Source: Periplaneta americana
Lineage: Eukaryota > Arthropoda > Insecta > Blattodea > Blattidae
Assembly: GCF_040183065.1 (NCBI RefSeq)
Contig: NC_091117.1
Span: 102,877,001-102,941,000, forward strand
Direction: 5' to 3'
Length of the DNA stretch: 64,000 nucleotides
Part shown: positions 5,207-62,312 of the stretch, one piece after another
Layout of the letters: each line of letters begins with the position of its first letter
Position numbering within the stretch: the stretch's first letter is position 1
Position numbers and translations under genes: made by a program
Notes under the pieces: model-generated
What the model was told of the DNA's origin: nothing
Databases searched by the model: none
Seen by the model: only the letters and a program-made list of their open reading frames with translations

Positions 5207-5417
5207 TGAATAATTTCGAGGGAAAAATTGTTCCGGAGCCGGGTATCGAACCCGGGACCTTTGGTTTAACGTACCAACGCTCTACCACTGAGCTACCCGG
5301 GAACTTTAACCGACACCGATCCAATTTTTCCCTCTATATCCACAGACCTCAAAGTGGGCTGACAACCGTCAAGCAACCAACTTCGAGTGCACACTAACTC
5401 CGTGTGACTTAAATTGT
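5207..5417 (-). repeat. tRNA-like cassette, left arm of inverted pair
   Basis: On the minus strand the unit has a leader of about 110 bases, a 71-nt tRNA-like moiety (5232-5302), and a trailer containing a T5 run within AATTTTTCCCTC. The whole unit is repeated in opposite orientation at 5540-5752, so the two units form an inverted repeat of about 210-base arms with about 120 bases between them. Leader and trailer are conserved along with the tRNA-like part. Confidence 0.75.
5232..5302 (-). tRNA. tRNA-like sequence, anticodon loop ACGTTAA
   Basis: The sequence folds as a cloverleaf. The acceptor TCCCGGG/CTCCGGA has one mismatch and one wobble. The D arm is GCTCAGTGGTAGAGC, the anticodon stem TTGGT/ACCAA, and the T arm CCGGG-TTCGATA-CCCGG. 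The loop reads ACGTTAA, so the nominal anticodon is GTT (Asn). Position 33 is C rather than the near-universal T, which argues against a working tRNA. A T5 run lies 4-5 nt past the 3' end and could act as a pol III terminator. It is probably a SINE or tRNA pseudogene cassette. Confidence 0.45.
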
Positions 5418-5539: not shown

Positions 5540-5795
5540 TTAAGTCACACGGAGTTAGTGTGCACTCGAAGTTGGTTGCTTGACGGTTGTCAGCCCACTT
5601 TGAGGTCTGTGGATATAGAGAGAAAAATTGGATCGGTGTCGGTTAGAGTTCCCGGGTAGCTCAGTGGTAGAGCGTTGGTACCTTAAACCAAAGGTCCCGG
5701 GTTCGATACCCGGCTCCGGAACAATTTTTCCCTCGAAATTATTCAAATCAGCTTTACAGGGAGTTATACCTGAAATCTTGATTTGCAATTTCGTT
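5540..5795 (+). repeat. tRNA-like cassette, right arm of inverted pair
   Basis: A plus-strand copy of the unit: leader with GCCCACTTTGAGGTC, tRNA-like core at 5650-5720, T5-containing trailer, and a further about 40 bases (GGGAGTTATACCTGAAATC) shared with the spacer. Confidence 0.75.
5650..5720 (+). tRNA. tRNA-like sequence, anticodon loop ACCTTAA
   Basis: It is almost identical to the minus-strand copy at 5232-5302, but the loop is ACCTTAA (nominal CTT, Lys) with C at position 33. Stem pairing is kept, and a T5 run follows 4 nt downstream. This is more likely a repeat member than a functional tRNA gene. Confidence 0.45.
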
Positions 5796-28179: not shown

Positions 28180-29557
28180 ACTTACTTACTTACAAATGGC
28201 TTTTAAGGAACCCGAAGGTTCATTGCCGTCCTCACATAAGCCCGCCATCGGTCCCTATCCTGTGCAAGATTAATCCAGTCTCTATCATCTTATCCCACCT
28301 CCCTCAAATCCATTTTAATATTATCCTCCCATCTATGTCTCGGCCTCCCTAAAGGTCTTTTTCCCTCCGGTCTCCCAACTAACACTCTACATGCATTTCT
28401 GCATTCGCCCATACGTGCTACATGCCCTGCCCATCTCAAACGTCTAGATTTAATGTTCCTAATTATGTCAGGTGAAGAATACAATGCGTGCAGTTCTGCG
28501 TTGTGTAACTTTCTCCATTCTCCTGTAACTTCATCCCGCTTAGCCCCAAATATTTTCTTAAGCACCTTATTCTCAAACACCCTTAACCTATGTTCCTCTC
28601 TCAGAGTGACAGTCCAAGTTTCACAACCATACAGAACAACCGGTAATATAACTGTTTTATAAATTCTAACTTTCAGATTTTTGGACAGCAGACTGGATGA
28701 TAAGAGCTTCTCAACCGAATAATAACACGCATTTCCCATATTTATTCTGTGTTTAATTTCCTCCCGAGTATCATTTATATTTGTTATTGTTGCTCCAAGA
28801 TATTTGAATGTTTCCACCTCTTCCAAGGATAAATCTCCAATTTTTATATTTCCATTTCGTACAATATTCTGGTCACGAGACATAATCATATACTTTGTCT
28901 TTTCGGGATTTATTTCCAAACCGATCGCTTTACTTGCTTCAAGTAAAATTTCCGTGTTTTCCCTAATCGTTTGTGTATTTTCTCCTAACATATTCACGTC
29001 ATCCGCATAGACAAGAAGCTGATGTAACCCGTTCAATTCCAAACCCTGCCTATTATCCTGAACTTTCCTAATGGCATATTCTAAAGCGAAGTTAAAAAGT
29101 AAAGGTGATAGTGCATCTTCCTGCTTTAGCCCGCAGTGAATTGGAAAAGCATCAGATAGAAACTGACCTATACGGACTTTGCTGTATGTTTCATTGAGAC
29201 ACATTTTAATTAATCGAACTAGTTTCTTGGGAATACCAAATTCAATAAGAATATCATATAATACTTCCCTCTTAACCGAGTCATATGCCTTTTTGAAGTC
29301 TATGAATAACTGATGTACTCTACCCTTATACCCTCATTTTTTCTCCATTATCTGTCGAATACAAAAAATCTTATCAATAGTCGATCTATTACGCCGAAAA
29401 CCGCACTGATGATCCCCAATAATTTCATCTACGTACGGAGTTAATCTTCTCAAAAGGATATTGGACAAAAGTGATATTCCTCGAAAGTTACCACAGTTGG
29501 TTTTGTCCCCCTTTTTAAAAATAGGTACAATTATGGACTCCTTCCATTGTTCTGGTA

Positions 29558-37959: not shown

Positions 37960-38927
37960 CTACCCGACAGCGACACAAATTTTCCCTTTGTATCCACGGA
38001 CCTCAAAGTGGGCTGACGACCTTGACGTGTATTTACTTTTTATGTGAATTGAAGTATTCGATTTTATGTAATGGCGTTTTTTTAAATATATTTTTGAATT
38101 TCTCTAAATACAATTTTCAGAGCTGCACTGAATTACAGTACCTTAATAACCTATTTTGTAAGCTATCTAATGATATTTTTTAAAAAATATTTGTAATTAT
38201 TCTTATGGTCAGAAAACAAATTGAAAATAGAACTATATGTTCAAATAAAAATATTTTAACTGCCCATTACATTTAAACGGTAGATGTCGCAAACATAATT
38301 TTGTACATCATTAATATATACGACATAAAGAGTTGAATGTACAATTTTTAACAAATTTGGAGATATGAATGTTTTTCGTCATACTCTTTTGCATGGAATT
38401 ACCCCAGTGCTAATTATCAAATATTGGAATACACTGAAACAGCAGAAAAAAATTCAGAACAATATGTCATTAAATGTGGTAGTAGATAGATTTTGACCAA
38501 GTACTCTACCCTACCAATTACGTTTACATTGGTAGAATTCAAAGGGTAGTTAGTATTTGCCCAAGTTATTCTACTGCTAACTCTACTAATGAAAACTAGG
38601 CTTTAACTCGTAAGCAACGACCAGAAGACGTCGTGCAAATAATTAGGACACAGGAATCGTAGGTACGCTTTACAAGAGTCGCAGTCTTTCTCAAAAAATG
38701 CCACAGATAGCTACAGGACAACCATAAAATGTCGACGAGGAAACCGATTTTTAAAGAAAAGGAATAAGTAGTAATGAAGATTTAAAAAATCGAAGTGCAT
38801 TTTTTATTGTCTGGTGCTTTTCTGGTTTTGAATCTAGCGCCTTGTTAATTCTGGCATTGGCAGCACTGGCGACGATATAGAACAATATATCCAGCGTTGC
38901 CAACACGGTGGTTTTCCCACTAAATCT

Positions 38928-46740: not shown

Positions 46741-46749
46741 TTAAGTTAT

Positions 46750-49700
46750 GGGTCATTCCATGTCAAAGGACCCTGAATACAAAAAAATTAAAATATTTCA
46801 AAGTAATTGTAATATTCATATTTCTAGAGTAAATGAACCTTTATACCAGATAAACAGTTAATGTCATGAAAATATTCAATTATTTAATGTCTATGCATAT
46901 TTTACTTTAGTATTAATAGTATTGCCGACAAAAGGAAAAATACATCTCATATGTTGCCTGCTCTGATCATCTTTGCTTGTCTTCTGATTTGTTGTTGCGT
47001 GAGAAACTTGCTGTGTAGATGTTCCACAATCTACTGTGCAATTTTGAAGCAAATCAGATGAGTTTTTCAATTACATGGGACTAACTCAAAATATTATTGT
47101 GTTGTGGGTGTGACATTTGATAATATGAGGCTAATGTCACACCCGCAACACAAAACATGATTTTATTTATGCCCATAAGAAAGTAATTAACTTATCAAAG
47201 TGAAACTTTCTGAAAGTGAGGTTATCCACAAGATATAAATTTTAACATATAACAACTTTTTTGTAGCATGACTATTTTGCACTCAAAATTGCGTTGCGTG
47301 TGTGTGACATTAGCCTCATATTATCAAATAGCACACCCACAACACAAAACATGAAAAAAACAGGGAAAGACAAAAACAAGCTCTTCAAACTGACAAAATA
47401 AAGTTAAACCGCAAGCAAGATAGAATAAGATAGAGGCGGCACAGAGAAAAACTAAAGTAGGCCTAAGTACCTGAGATAAGTAATGCATCTCCAACAAGGG
47501 GTTCATATAGGAGTAACAGATCACTAGGGAAAGCAGTTTTTAAAGTGAACAGAGGTTTACCAAACAGCCTAAGGAAAAGGAAATTTATATTTGAGGAATT
47601 GCCGGAATTTGCAAAAAGACTGAATCTGCTACAAAAATTAAAAAAAAGAAGGTACCGTAAAAGGTTGAATGATGAAACAAAAGATAACATGGTGCAATTT
47701 TATCTCCGTGGTGACATAAGCAGGACTGAGCTAGGTAAAAAAGACAAAGTCACCATAAAGGATATTCAAACCGGCAAGAAAGGAGTGGTACAGAAACGTA
47801 CTATGATGATGACCATTGCTGAAGCCTATGAAGAGTCTGTGAAGGAATATCCTGATTGTGTGATAAAGAAATTCAAGTTTTTCGAGCTTCGCCCACCATT
47901 TGTATTTCCCGTTTCCTCTATGACCCATAACACATGTATATCATTACCATGGGAACATGCAGTTTTTGATGGAAAGTGTAGGAAAAGAAACTGGTATATT
48001 TCCACGTAGTAAACAAGATTTATTAGCCATCCTTGTATGTGACCTTGAACTCTTTGAATGCAAGTGAGAAATGCAAGCCGGCCTGCAATTCTGTTCAAAA
48101 TATCATTAGTGATGAAGAAACAATTAGCCTAATAATGAAATGAAATGGCCTCAGTGTAGAGACGTGGAAGGACATCCTCAAATCGTCCTGGAAACTGGAA
48201 TTGTATCTGACTAGGCCTATATAAAGAAAATACAAATGCAGATGAACGGCATTCAAGCTCCATAGTTACGTGAAAAGAAAACAGTCCAAACACTTTGAAG
48301 AGGTGAAGAAAAAATTTCTAATTCATGATGAAGTCATGCAAATTGATTTTGCAGAAAACTACATATCTTTGAGGCAAGATAAAATTCAAAGTGCTGACTG
48401 GAGTCAGTGACAAACCACCATTTTCACTGCTGCTGTTTGGTTGAAATGTGGGAAGAACTATAATTAAGTTATGTCATTATAAGTGATGATTTGTCACACA
48501 GCAAATATTCTATTTGGACATTCCTTAAAACCCTTCTCTAAGACTTGAAACTGAAACAAGTTCCGAATATTCAACATGTGAAAATATTCTCTGATGGCTG
48601 TGCTGCACAGTTCAAGAATTGCATCGCAGTGTCGAACCTCACACATTTTCTGTCTGACTTTAATATTTCTGCAGACTGGAATTTTTTTTTTGCCACTTTC
48701 CATGGCAAAGGAGCAGTTGATGATGTCGGGAGAACTTTGAAAAGAACTGTTTGGCAAATGGTGAAATCACGCCAAGTGATTATAAATTCGCCTTACGAAT
48801 TCTACGACTGTACCAAACAGAGTGTAAAAGGTGTAACAACACTATTTACATCTGCAGAAGAAGTGAATTCATTATCATCATTCCTGGATAATCGTGAAAA
48901 ATGTACAGCCAATTTCAAGCCTACATAAAGTTCACTTTGTGTCTCCTATTAAAGAAGGTGTGGTGAAGGTTTCTGTAAGCTCTCAACAAGAAGAATTAGC
49001 AACAGTCCAATTATTACATCTTGAAGAAGAAGAAGAAGAAGTCTAGATCTTCATGCAACAACTTGTACTTGTACCTTTAACTGCAAGAGGAAAGTTTAAC
49101 AGGAAATAAGACAAGACATCTTCTTTGCTATTGTGATGGAGTATGAGGAAGAGACTAATCAAGTTTTGTTCAAGTATATGCAATGTGGGAAGTGTTCAGT
49201 GTGGCCAGTAAATGAGGACAAATCTTGGGAGGACTTGTCAGTGATCCTGAAGAAAGTTAAATCTCCTAATTTGCCTTTTGTGACAATGCTTGCATTTTAG
49301 CCTACATGAATGTTTGTAAAAAATGTTTAAATTTGTATGTGTTTTTTAATTAATTTCAATAGCAGTGGTATTTTTTTTTTGTTTTCTTTGTAAATAAAAA
49401 ATATCTGTCACATTGCTGCTGATAAAAATATGTAAACTTAACATGTCTTCAAGTGTCACACACGCAACGGTCACATACGCAACATTTTCAAATTAGAATT
49501 TACGTGGAATGTTAATGTTCCTCAGCAACTTCTATTATATCATCTCAAAAGTATACATTTTATTTATATCACCAACAAGTTACAATCATATTCATAATCC
49601 AAGAGAACAGAATTGTAATAAAATCTTCACTAGCATGAGAAGGAGTTGTATCATTTTGTCACACAAGCAACAAAGATTGACATTTTATTTTTGTTAAGTG

Positions 49701-49863
49701 TATTCTTCTTAGCCAACTCAAAACTTCATAACTGAATTAAGTAATTGATGGTTAATATAATATATAAAAATAAAAATGTTAGCTCTTAAAACATTTAATC
49801 TACAGCGTCTTTTGTTAGTGAATCTGCTGTTAAAATGTCACACACGCAACCATGGAATGACCC
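46750..49863 (+). mobile_element. 3.1-kb transposon with GGGTCATTCCATG termini
   Basis: GGGTCATTCCATG at 46750-46762 is matched by its reverse complement CATGGAATGACCC ending at 49863. TTAT is directly repeated at 46746-46749 and 49864-49867. Subterminal motifs of the form GTCACACxCGCAAC occur at about 47101 and 47293 (inverted), 47136 and 47331, then 49455, 49470, 49658 and 49837, the last touching the right TIR. One gene remnant with a DDE-like arrangement spans 47545-49300. A related shorter element is at 61409-62244. The 4-bp duplication suggests a Sola-like group, but I cannot confirm that. Confidence 0.85.
47545..49300 (+). pseudogene. DDE-type transposase-like gene, broken
   Basis: Probable transposase. 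Part 1 (47545-48009) is basic: FEELPEFAKRLNLLQKLKKR, then RGDISRTELGKKDKVT and FKFFELRPPFVFPVSSMTHN. Part 2 (48270-48410) has HDEVMQIDFAENYISLRQDK and IQSADW, with a candidate catalytic D in IDFAENY. Part 3 (48545-48928) has VKIFSDGCAAQFKNC (second D), FHGKGAVDDVGRTLKR and SRQVIINSPYEFYD. Part 4 (49138-49300) is the C-terminal VMEYEEETNQVLFKYMQ and SPNLPFVTML. Stops or frameshifts separate the parts. FSDGxxxQFKN...HGKGxVDxxGxxxKR is a motif I know from unclassified transposases of arthropods and cnidarians. An AATAAA-like signal lies near 49394. Confidence 0.7.
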
Positions 49864-49869
49864 TTATAT

Positions 49870-58518: not shown

Positions 58519-58738
58519 AATATTTGAGGAGAAAAATTCGATCCAGCTCTGGGGATCGAACCCAGGTCCTTGGTTCTACGTACCAAGTGCTCCGACCACT
58601 GAGCTATGCCGAATTCAATCCACAGCGCTGGACCGAACCTTCCTCCTTCAGTGTTTTCCTTTGTGGCCTGACTCCAAGTTAGGCTTATATGTTGACTTAT
58701 AGTGTCAACTGCCATTATACTAGGAGTGCATTGTATTG
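58519..58738 (-). repeat. tRNA-like cassette, type 2, copy 2
   Basis: The second tandem copy, with a similar leader, tRNA-like core and GAATTTTTCTCCTC trailer, separated from copy 1 by about 80 bases. Confidence 0.75.
58542..58613 (-). tRNA. tRNA-like sequence, anticodon loop ACGTAGA
   Basis: The minus strand has GCTCAGTGGTCGGAGC, anticodon stem TTGGT/ACCAA with loop ACGTAGA (nominal GTA, Tyr; C at position 33) and T arm CTGGG-TTCGATC-CCCAG. The D stem is better than in copy 1. It is followed by the T5 run of the trailer. Confidence 0.45.
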
Positions 58739-61220: not shown

Positions 61221-61408
61221 TAGAGAACACAAAACAGCAGAGAATGATGAATGATTACGAAGGAATTTTCACTTCCCTGAAATACTTAAGTTGGAGAAAT
61301 AGAATTTGTGGAACTTAAGAATTTATCAGCTATAATGGCTGGGAGGCATCATCGTGCTAACCATGCAATATCTCCATTCTGGTTGGATGATCGTCCACCT
61401 CTGCTTCA

Positions 61409-62244
61409 GGGTAATTCCATAATTATGTCAACCAAATTGCCATTTTCTCAAAGTGGTTCTAGACAATTCTTGAATGCTATACCAGAGACTTTAATGTCTA
61501 TATTTTATGAAATCAAAGATAATTGGCCGTATTTTTGCATAAATCATATGCTGGCAGCACTGTGAACTGAAGATGTTTGGAAGTGAAGACATATGATAAG
61601 GATGATACACTTCATGTAAAATTCCTTCGGCATGAGAGGAAGTCCAAGAAATTCTTTTCGCCTGCTATTGGTGATGAGGCTGATATTGACAAAGACCAGG
61701 TTATAAAAATTCTACCAGAGCCACAATTTGATAATAGGCTTAAACTAAATTTTCAACATATCTGTTTTGATAATGATGTTCTTTAACTTGCACATGCATG
61801 TAATTTTGTAAATCATATTTGGAATATGTAGTGTCTGTCACAGTTTGTATGTCGTGTCTGTCACGAGAATAGGGCTTAATATATACTTCATAAATGTTTC
61901 AAATGAAAAACTATCTGTAGCATATTAAGGAAGGATATTCTACCTTTCTATGATTATAGTACTAACAAAGGAAGTTGCTAATATTGGAAGATATAGTACA
62001 TTGTTGGACTTCCCTTTAATTTGTGTTCCTTTTTCTGTCGTGTCTGTCACAACATTACTTGTACTTAGATATCTGTAATAAATAGAGATTGATACTTGCT
62101 CCTTACATGAAAGTGTAGCTGTGTACATGCACTTTGTATCTGATATAGTTTAAAAGTCTGCTAATGTTATGTTGAAGTAGAAATAAATCTTTATATTTTT
62201 GTAGAGAGTCATTTGTCGTGTCTGTCACAAATGGAATTACCCTT
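61409..62244 (+). mobile_element. Short transposon with GGGTAATTCCAT termini
   Basis: GGGTAATTCCAT (61409-61420) is matched by ATGGAATTACCC (62233-62244). TTCA is directly repeated at 61405-61408 and 62245-62248. Motifs of the form GTCGTGTCTGTCAC occur at about 61831, 61851, 62037 and 62215, all in one orientation in the right half. The interior has a coding remnant at 61577-61786. The terminus and duplication type match the 3.1-kb element at 46750-49863 (GGGTCATTCCATG; TTAT). Confidence 0.82.
61577..61786 (+). pseudogene. C-terminal part of transposase-like protein
   Basis: An open frame MEVKTYDKDDTLHVKFLRHE, then KKFFSPAIGDEADIDKDQV and a stop after CFDNDVL. Position (last coding piece, about 460 bases before the right TIR) and style match the C-terminal piece VMEYEEETNQVLFKY of the 3.1-kb element. 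Everything upstream, including the catalytic region, is deleted. Whether the two proteins are homologous needs an alignment. Confidence 0.5.
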
Positions 62245-62312
62245 CAGCATGTGGACATGAGACTAGCAGCCGGCTGTTCATATATGGTCCTTCATGGGCT
62301 GTCGTGCCTCGG

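Follow-up and report, generated by a model that had tools for sequence, protein, structure and literature searches.

We analyzed a 64,000-nucleotide stretch of the Periplaneta americana genome (assembly GCF_040183065.1, contig NC_091117.1, positions 102,877,001 to 102,941,000 of the forward strand; hereafter the window) and found in it a 3,114-bp transposon, element 1 (window 46750-49863), which is bounded by perfect 13-bp terminal inverted repeats (TIRs) GGGTCATTCCATG and has TTAT on either side. Element 1 is very probably a degraded cut-and-paste DNA transposon with a Sola-like mechanism, that is, with a likely DDD triad and a 4-bp target-site duplication (TSD). We observed exact termini, the 4-bp duplication, many copies with the same ends and internally deleted, non-autonomous derivatives, as well as open frames and near-identical copies among the relatives. 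In addition, the right end carries a four-site array with fixed spacing across diverged lineages, which is new here.

Boundaries, copies and target-site duplications

In the window, GGGTCATTCCATG occurs without mismatch exactly twice, at the two ends of element 1 (Table 1). With up to three mismatches, the 13-mer was found 11 times compared to 12.4 expected from shuffles; inexact matches alone are therefore uninformative. Terminus pairs were searched for with the motif at up to three mismatches, partners 60-12,000 bp apart and a comparison of the flanking 4-mers. Three motif pairs had identical flanking 4-mers, and two of these had perfect 12-mers on both sides, namely element 1 and a second element, element 2 (61409/62242). 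A sequence-only reading of the window had delimited a transposon at 46746..49867 including the TTAT duplication. These boundaries are exact, and those of other genomic copies, set beforehand as the point on which the delimitation could fail, coincide with them.

Copy searches covered the P. americana genome (3.23 Gb, 91 contigs) and yielded at least 110 match rows for element 1 (40 of 89 candidates scored). Since its fuller copies are only 85-88% identical to it, element 1 is old. Boundaries were sampled in full at 20 places and by the ends alone at 10 others; where flanks coincided, copies were merged by eye into one site, and copies lacking an end were excluded. An exact 4-bp duplication was present in 10 of the 13 two-ended sites, the window included (TTAT, ATAG, ATAT, GTAT, AGGT, TTAA, ATAA, TACA, AAAA and TTAC). 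Five copies of element 1 occupy the same position within a dispersed repeat. When the flanks were joined with one ATAG, at least 40 places matched across the junction with 91-96% identity (40 of 63 candidates scored). In all four empty places examined, ATAG occurs once, whereas at the filled site it flanks the element left and right, which shows insertion with a 4-bp duplication. Five copies of ~6.2 kb (L021-L025, on C15 and C18) have common flanks and extra internal DNA; these look like one element multiplied along with its surroundings.

Element 2 measures 834 bp (61409-62242; 61405-62246 with its TTCA duplication) and ends in GGGTAATTCCAT. It is a member of a young non-autonomous family: when 40 of 44 candidates were scored, at least 28 rows, its own among them, covered nearly the full length at 95-100% identity. 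Five longer places contain matches to its first ~190 and last ~645 bases, separated by 2.4 kb (6.3 kb in one). In one of these places, the DNA between the matches codes for a protein of this kind, distributed over two frames and with the third Asp changed to Asn. Of the 27 other near-full copies, 19, mostly top-scoring ones, were inspected at their ends and each counted separately: 18 had an exact 4-bp TSD and none a 5-bp TSD. These 18 duplications prefer TWWA, with T at position 1 in 16 and A at position 4 in 14. Copies of other lineages had an exact 4-bp TSD in five of seven cases. Among the pooled exact TSDs (n = 34), T occupied position 1 in 23 and A position 4 in 21, and TTAA occurred three times. 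At the DNA level, no significant match between elements 1 and 2 was found (best E 0.32).

The transposase and its classification

The motifs DFAENY, FSDGCAAQFKN and HGKGAVDDVG, which the sequence-only reading had attributed to a DDE-like gene remnant, are all present in element 1, spread over two reading frames (Table 1). Relatives encode the same protein in frames of 700-780 aa, and the genome yielded 150 scored matches to the family among 2,621 first-look candidates. The AlphaFold model of one relative, L063, shows an RNase H fold (mean predicted local distance difference test score, pLDDT, 67.8; predicted template modeling score, pTM, 0.50), with D356, D446 and D487 at the expected strand, strand and helix positions; these residues are likely the catalytic triad. 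The model thus combines the predicted fold with the three acidic residues by which a DDE/D transposase is recognized, in line with the DDE-like label given earlier. The C-terminal barrel of L063, compared alone, matched Tudor and BAH domains and is tentatively regarded as Tudor/BAH-like. The cores of retroviral integrase, IstA and Mos1 share with the model the predicted RNase H fold, three well-placed Asp residues and a C-terminal SH3-like barrel, but significant sequence similarity was not detected in the PDB (best E 1.2, unrelated), where the sequence search gave chance matches only. In L060 and L050 (C4:140693600-140698310), GTAAGT and a pyrimidine-rich CAG precede the start codon, which suggests a 5' leader intron in the gene of the L050 lineage.

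The element works like a Sola-type cut-and-paste transposon with a 4-bp TSD, a likeness drawn from TSD, termini and likely triad. Sola transposases, as Bao et al. reportedly described in 2009, have a DDD triad and make a 4-bp TSD, and an Asp is likely the third catalytic residue here as well. TSDs of this length predominate in the element 1, element 2 and other-lineage samples described above. Furthermore, both elements have the 12-13-bp TIRs and AT-rich 4-bp TSDs given in excerpts of PMC3627910 for Sola2 of amoebae, whose TIRs measure 12-13 bp, as in Dictyostelium fasciculatum, or are imperfect and 21 bp long; for a choanoflagellate Sola1 element, an excerpt of PMC6875170 gives a 4-bp TSD and a 32-bp TIR. 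The chances are therefore about even that the family is a Sola2 or other Sola-group family already listed in Repbase and that only its occurrence in this genome is new. Conversely, no Pfam family named as a transposase responded to the proteins (E <=0.1) or to the window fragments (E <=1), and the subterminal site array described below goes unmentioned in excerpts of Sola descriptions. The suggestion that the element could define the ends and target of a poorly described superfamily is partly supported: its ends, its duplication and a DDE/D-type protein remnant are real, but an undescribed status does not follow, as TSD and 12-13-bp termini agree with the excerpted Sola2 description (PMC3627910).

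A separate superfamily, sister to elements with DUF7869 proteins (Pfam PF25273) and with ends of its own, appears possible but rather doubtful. DUF7869 was the only library family that responded in more than two members, namely in five of 15 aligned members at E <0.1 (best 5.8e-5). Near-identical L050 copies may make up most of these five: when seven members were scanned singly, only L050 responded, at 18.3 bits and thus below the gathering cut-off of 26. Proteins over this cut-off were abundant in the P. americana genome (150 scored of 2,969 candidates) and in none of 14 control genomes. In a single comparison, four DUF7869 proteins, two of them near-identical, matched the family profile in the core only (probability 90.6, E 1.3e-6, 117 columns), and the alignment spans the regions of the second and third Asp (SDNCxGQxKN, GHSxxxxD). 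The element transposase and the DUF7869 proteins are therefore probably distant relatives, judged by this alignment. The ends differ: a DUF7869 element of the P. americana genome, present in two near-identical copies (L097 and L098), has unrelated ends with an inverted TCGTGGGCTGCAATAGTG region. However, ends alone are insufficient for separation, since the 2009 Sola abstract is said to accept groups with different ends within Sola.

Membership in Kolobok or in PIF/Harbinger-ISL2EU-Spy (PHIS) is at odds with the duplication type and has a negligible probability. Such elements are similar in size and also have short TIRs, but Kolobok duplicates TTAA, seen in merely three of the 34 pooled TSDs, while PHIS groups make a 3-bp, a 2-bp or no duplication, against 4 bp and a single copy at the empty site here; again, no Pfam family named as a transposase responded at E <=0.1.

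Viral, phage, plasmid and prokaryote collections contained no real relative; a 24-residue IMG/VR match was antisense to a phage tail gene and was judged to be due to chance. Nothing convincing was found in NCBIfam. In the open-licence library searched, the matches listed for the terminal sequences concerned other subjects by title, those listed for the protein motif strings contained nothing on the family, and DUF7869 was not found. The family is not named in excerpts of PMC3627910, PMC4455052, PMC5199201, PMC6875170, PMC10294476, PMC3985635 and PMC8634313, nor among the matches listed by other literature searches.

Taken together, a protein family that is abundant in the genome and carries no Pfam transposase label now has ends, a target, proof of insertion and a likely fold, and its genes can therefore be annotated as mobile DNA.

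Spacing of the subterminal sites

The right end of element 1 carries four copies or near copies of TGTCACACACGCAAC, and that of element 2 carries TGTCGTGTCTGTCAC four times (Table 1). Four copies of a ~15-bp motif were found at the right end in seven lineages, near -28, -206, -395 and -415, with a distinct version of the motif at nearly identical positions in each of L050, L063, L064, L065 and L066. The four copies within one element differ by 0-2 mismatches, compared to 2 to 8 differences per 15 positions between lineages. The steps from site to site are 178-180 bp (168 in L050 and L065), then 185-189 bp and then 15-23 bp. In L051, a second copy of the L050 lineage, the sites lie at -29, -195, -376 and -399 (steps of 166, 181 and 23 bp); they were located by direct scan, and the automatic array score of 8 stems from one site beyond the permitted range. 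All seven full-length elements, which represent six lineages, have a left-end site with its start between +352 and +361. Six of them have another that starts between +513 and +544; L050 lacks it at up to three mismatches. A 46-nt inverted repeat (96%; window 47097-47347, arms 159 nt apart) surrounds the left-end sites of element 1.

We scored the array at all 141 GGAAT words on both window strands. The true ends had 2 and 3 mismatches and all other words at least 17; as the position ranges were derived from the same lineages, this is a check against chance and not independent. Among 5,000 random window positions, two scored 9 or less (minimum 3), presumably the true ends. In 21 lineage pairs, the spacer that separates the first right-end site from the second did not clearly align better than shuffles (z -1.4 to 2.3, with L050/L065 at the maximum). 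Because this spacer cannot be aligned and elements 1 and 2 lack a significant DNA match, yet the steps are kept, the spacing has outlived the sequence. The motifs are thus probably transposase-binding sites under a spacing constraint.

Alternatively, as all lineages derive from an ancestor with the same layout, the regular spacing might reflect common descent alone, without selection. We consider this unlikely. The first right-end spacer, the only one compared, is unalignable between lineages, so that insertions and deletions had time to accumulate, and the steps have nevertheless remained constant within a few bases, with a shift of ~11 bp common to L050 and L065 as the sole exception.

With respect to mechanism, the basic N-terminal region of the transposase would bind the subterminal sites of ~15 bp (four on the right side of the element and at least two on the left), and transposase protomers would synapse both ends in an asymmetric transpososome. 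After cleavage at the termini, the ends would be joined, with a stagger of 4 bp, to a target rich in A and T (TWWA). Contacts with chromatin or DNA may be made by the Tudor/BAH-like barrel, much as the SH3-like C-terminal domain of retroviral integrase contacts DNA. Site spacing is probably under selection, through either the geometry of the transpososome or packaging between the sites. The steps of 168, 179, 188 and 21 bp correspond to 16.0, 17.0, 17.9 and 2.0 turns of 10.5 bp, while the 15 bp of element 1 are off-turn; the longer steps are also near the nucleosome repeat length. A geometric constraint on the transpososome is the sober reading and nucleosomes between the sites the bold one. 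In the latter, consecutive linkers would accommodate the sites at -28, -206 and -395/-415, separated by roughly one nucleosome repeat and facing almost the same side of the helix. The nucleosome in between would be read by the Tudor/BAH-like domain, and the transpososome would form on chromatinized ends. That the ends carry such a nucleosome-length ruler and, in parallel, belong to a superfamily first characterized here in its ends and target is, as a joint claim, improbable. Subterminal repeats are also known from hAT (Hermes) and other transposons. In hAT, however, the TSD is 8 bp, compared to 4 bp here, the protein is another one, and the sites described here are ~180 bp apart. A paper title on such transposons names asymmetric DNA binding.

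Several observations weigh against the view of element 1 as a Sola-like cut-and-paste transposon with bound and spaced subterminal sites. Three of its 13 two-ended sites lack an exact TSD (AATA/AATG, TTGA/TTTA and TTAC/TATT); the last has the same left flank as the exact TTAC site, which probably reflects a rearrangement on its right side, and both may stem from a single insertion. L013, L016-L018 and L020 lack one recognizable end, and in other lineages L064 and L056/L062 lack an exact TSD. Element 1 itself is broken, and nothing supports mobility of the window copy. The fold derives from a single model of moderate quality, and two truncated copies deviate from the likely triad when read by eye: among 13 aligned rows that include the first Asp position, L067 has Ala, and among 15 that include the second, L057 has Glu. 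That the transposase binds the subterminal sites or contacts chromatin is inferred. Finally, the spacing rule rests on seven lineages recognized by their ends; among eight further sequences, end and array were found only in L058 (2 mismatches), which is L050-like, while the other seven had no end within the stretch examined.

Fixed spacing of diverged sites in otherwise dissimilar DNA points to a constraint on transposase assembly at the ends. Combined with a domain resembling chromatin readers, it offers a direct way to ask whether a transposase recognizes nucleosome-scale geometry.

Further features of the window

GGGTAATTCCATG at 38392-38404 (-) is an isolated terminus-like word, for which neither a partner with the same flanking bases nor a site array was found. 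It may mark the left end of an element since lost, or be due to chance. The sole open frame of at least 220 aa in the window (28290-29333, -; 347 aa) reads like a non-LTR (long terminal repeat) reverse transcriptase, judged by a YADD motif recognized by eye. Predicted tRNA genes or tRNA-derived repeats lie at 5230-5302, 5650-5722 and 58540-58613 (Asn, Lys and Tyr).

Table 1. Parts of elements 1 and 2 in window coordinates. Signed numbers are positions from the left (+) or right (-) end of the element.
Feature	Position	Strand	Basis
Element 1 left TSD TTAT	46746..46749	.	flank comparison
Element 1 left TIR GGGTCATTCCATG	46750..46762	+	motif scan; ends common to other copies
Element 1 left subterminal site, +352	47101..47115	-	site scan
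Element 1 left subterminal site, +386	47135..47149	+	site scan
Element 1 left subterminal site, +544	47293..47307	-	site scan
Transposase remnant upstream of catalytic domain	47467..48006	+	open reading frame (ORF); motif order as in intact relatives, by eye, unaligned
Transposase remnant, QIDFAENY (first Asp, codon 48345) and QSADW	48246..48407	+	compared by eye with alignment A1
Transposase remnant, FSDGCAAQFKN (second Asp, 48593) and HGKGAVDDVG (third Asp, 48719)	48542..48925	+	ORF; row in alignment A1
C-terminal domain remnant (Tudor/BAH-like in relative's model)	49100..49297	+	ORF; correspondence by eye
Element 1 right subterminal site, -410	49454..49468	+	site scan
Element 1 right subterminal site, -395	49469..49483	+	site scan
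Element 1 right subterminal site, -207	49657..49671	+	site scan
Element 1 right subterminal site, -28, adjoining terminus	49836..49850	+	site scan
Element 1 right TIR	49851..49863	-	motif scan
Element 1 right TSD TTAT	49864..49867	.	flank comparison
Element 2 left TSD TTCA	61405..61408	.	flank comparison
Element 2 left terminal repeat GGGTAATTCCAT	61409..61420	+	motif scan
Element 2 transposase C-terminus remnant	61571..61783	+	compared by eye with intact relatives
Element 2 right-end site, -416	61827..61841	+	site scan
Element 2 right-end site, -393	61850..61864	+	site scan
Element 2 right-end site, -207	62036..62050	+	site scan
Element 2 right-end site, -29	62214..62228	+	site scan
Element 2 right terminal repeat	62231..62242	-	motif scan
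Element 2 right TSD TTCA	62243..62246	.	flank comparison
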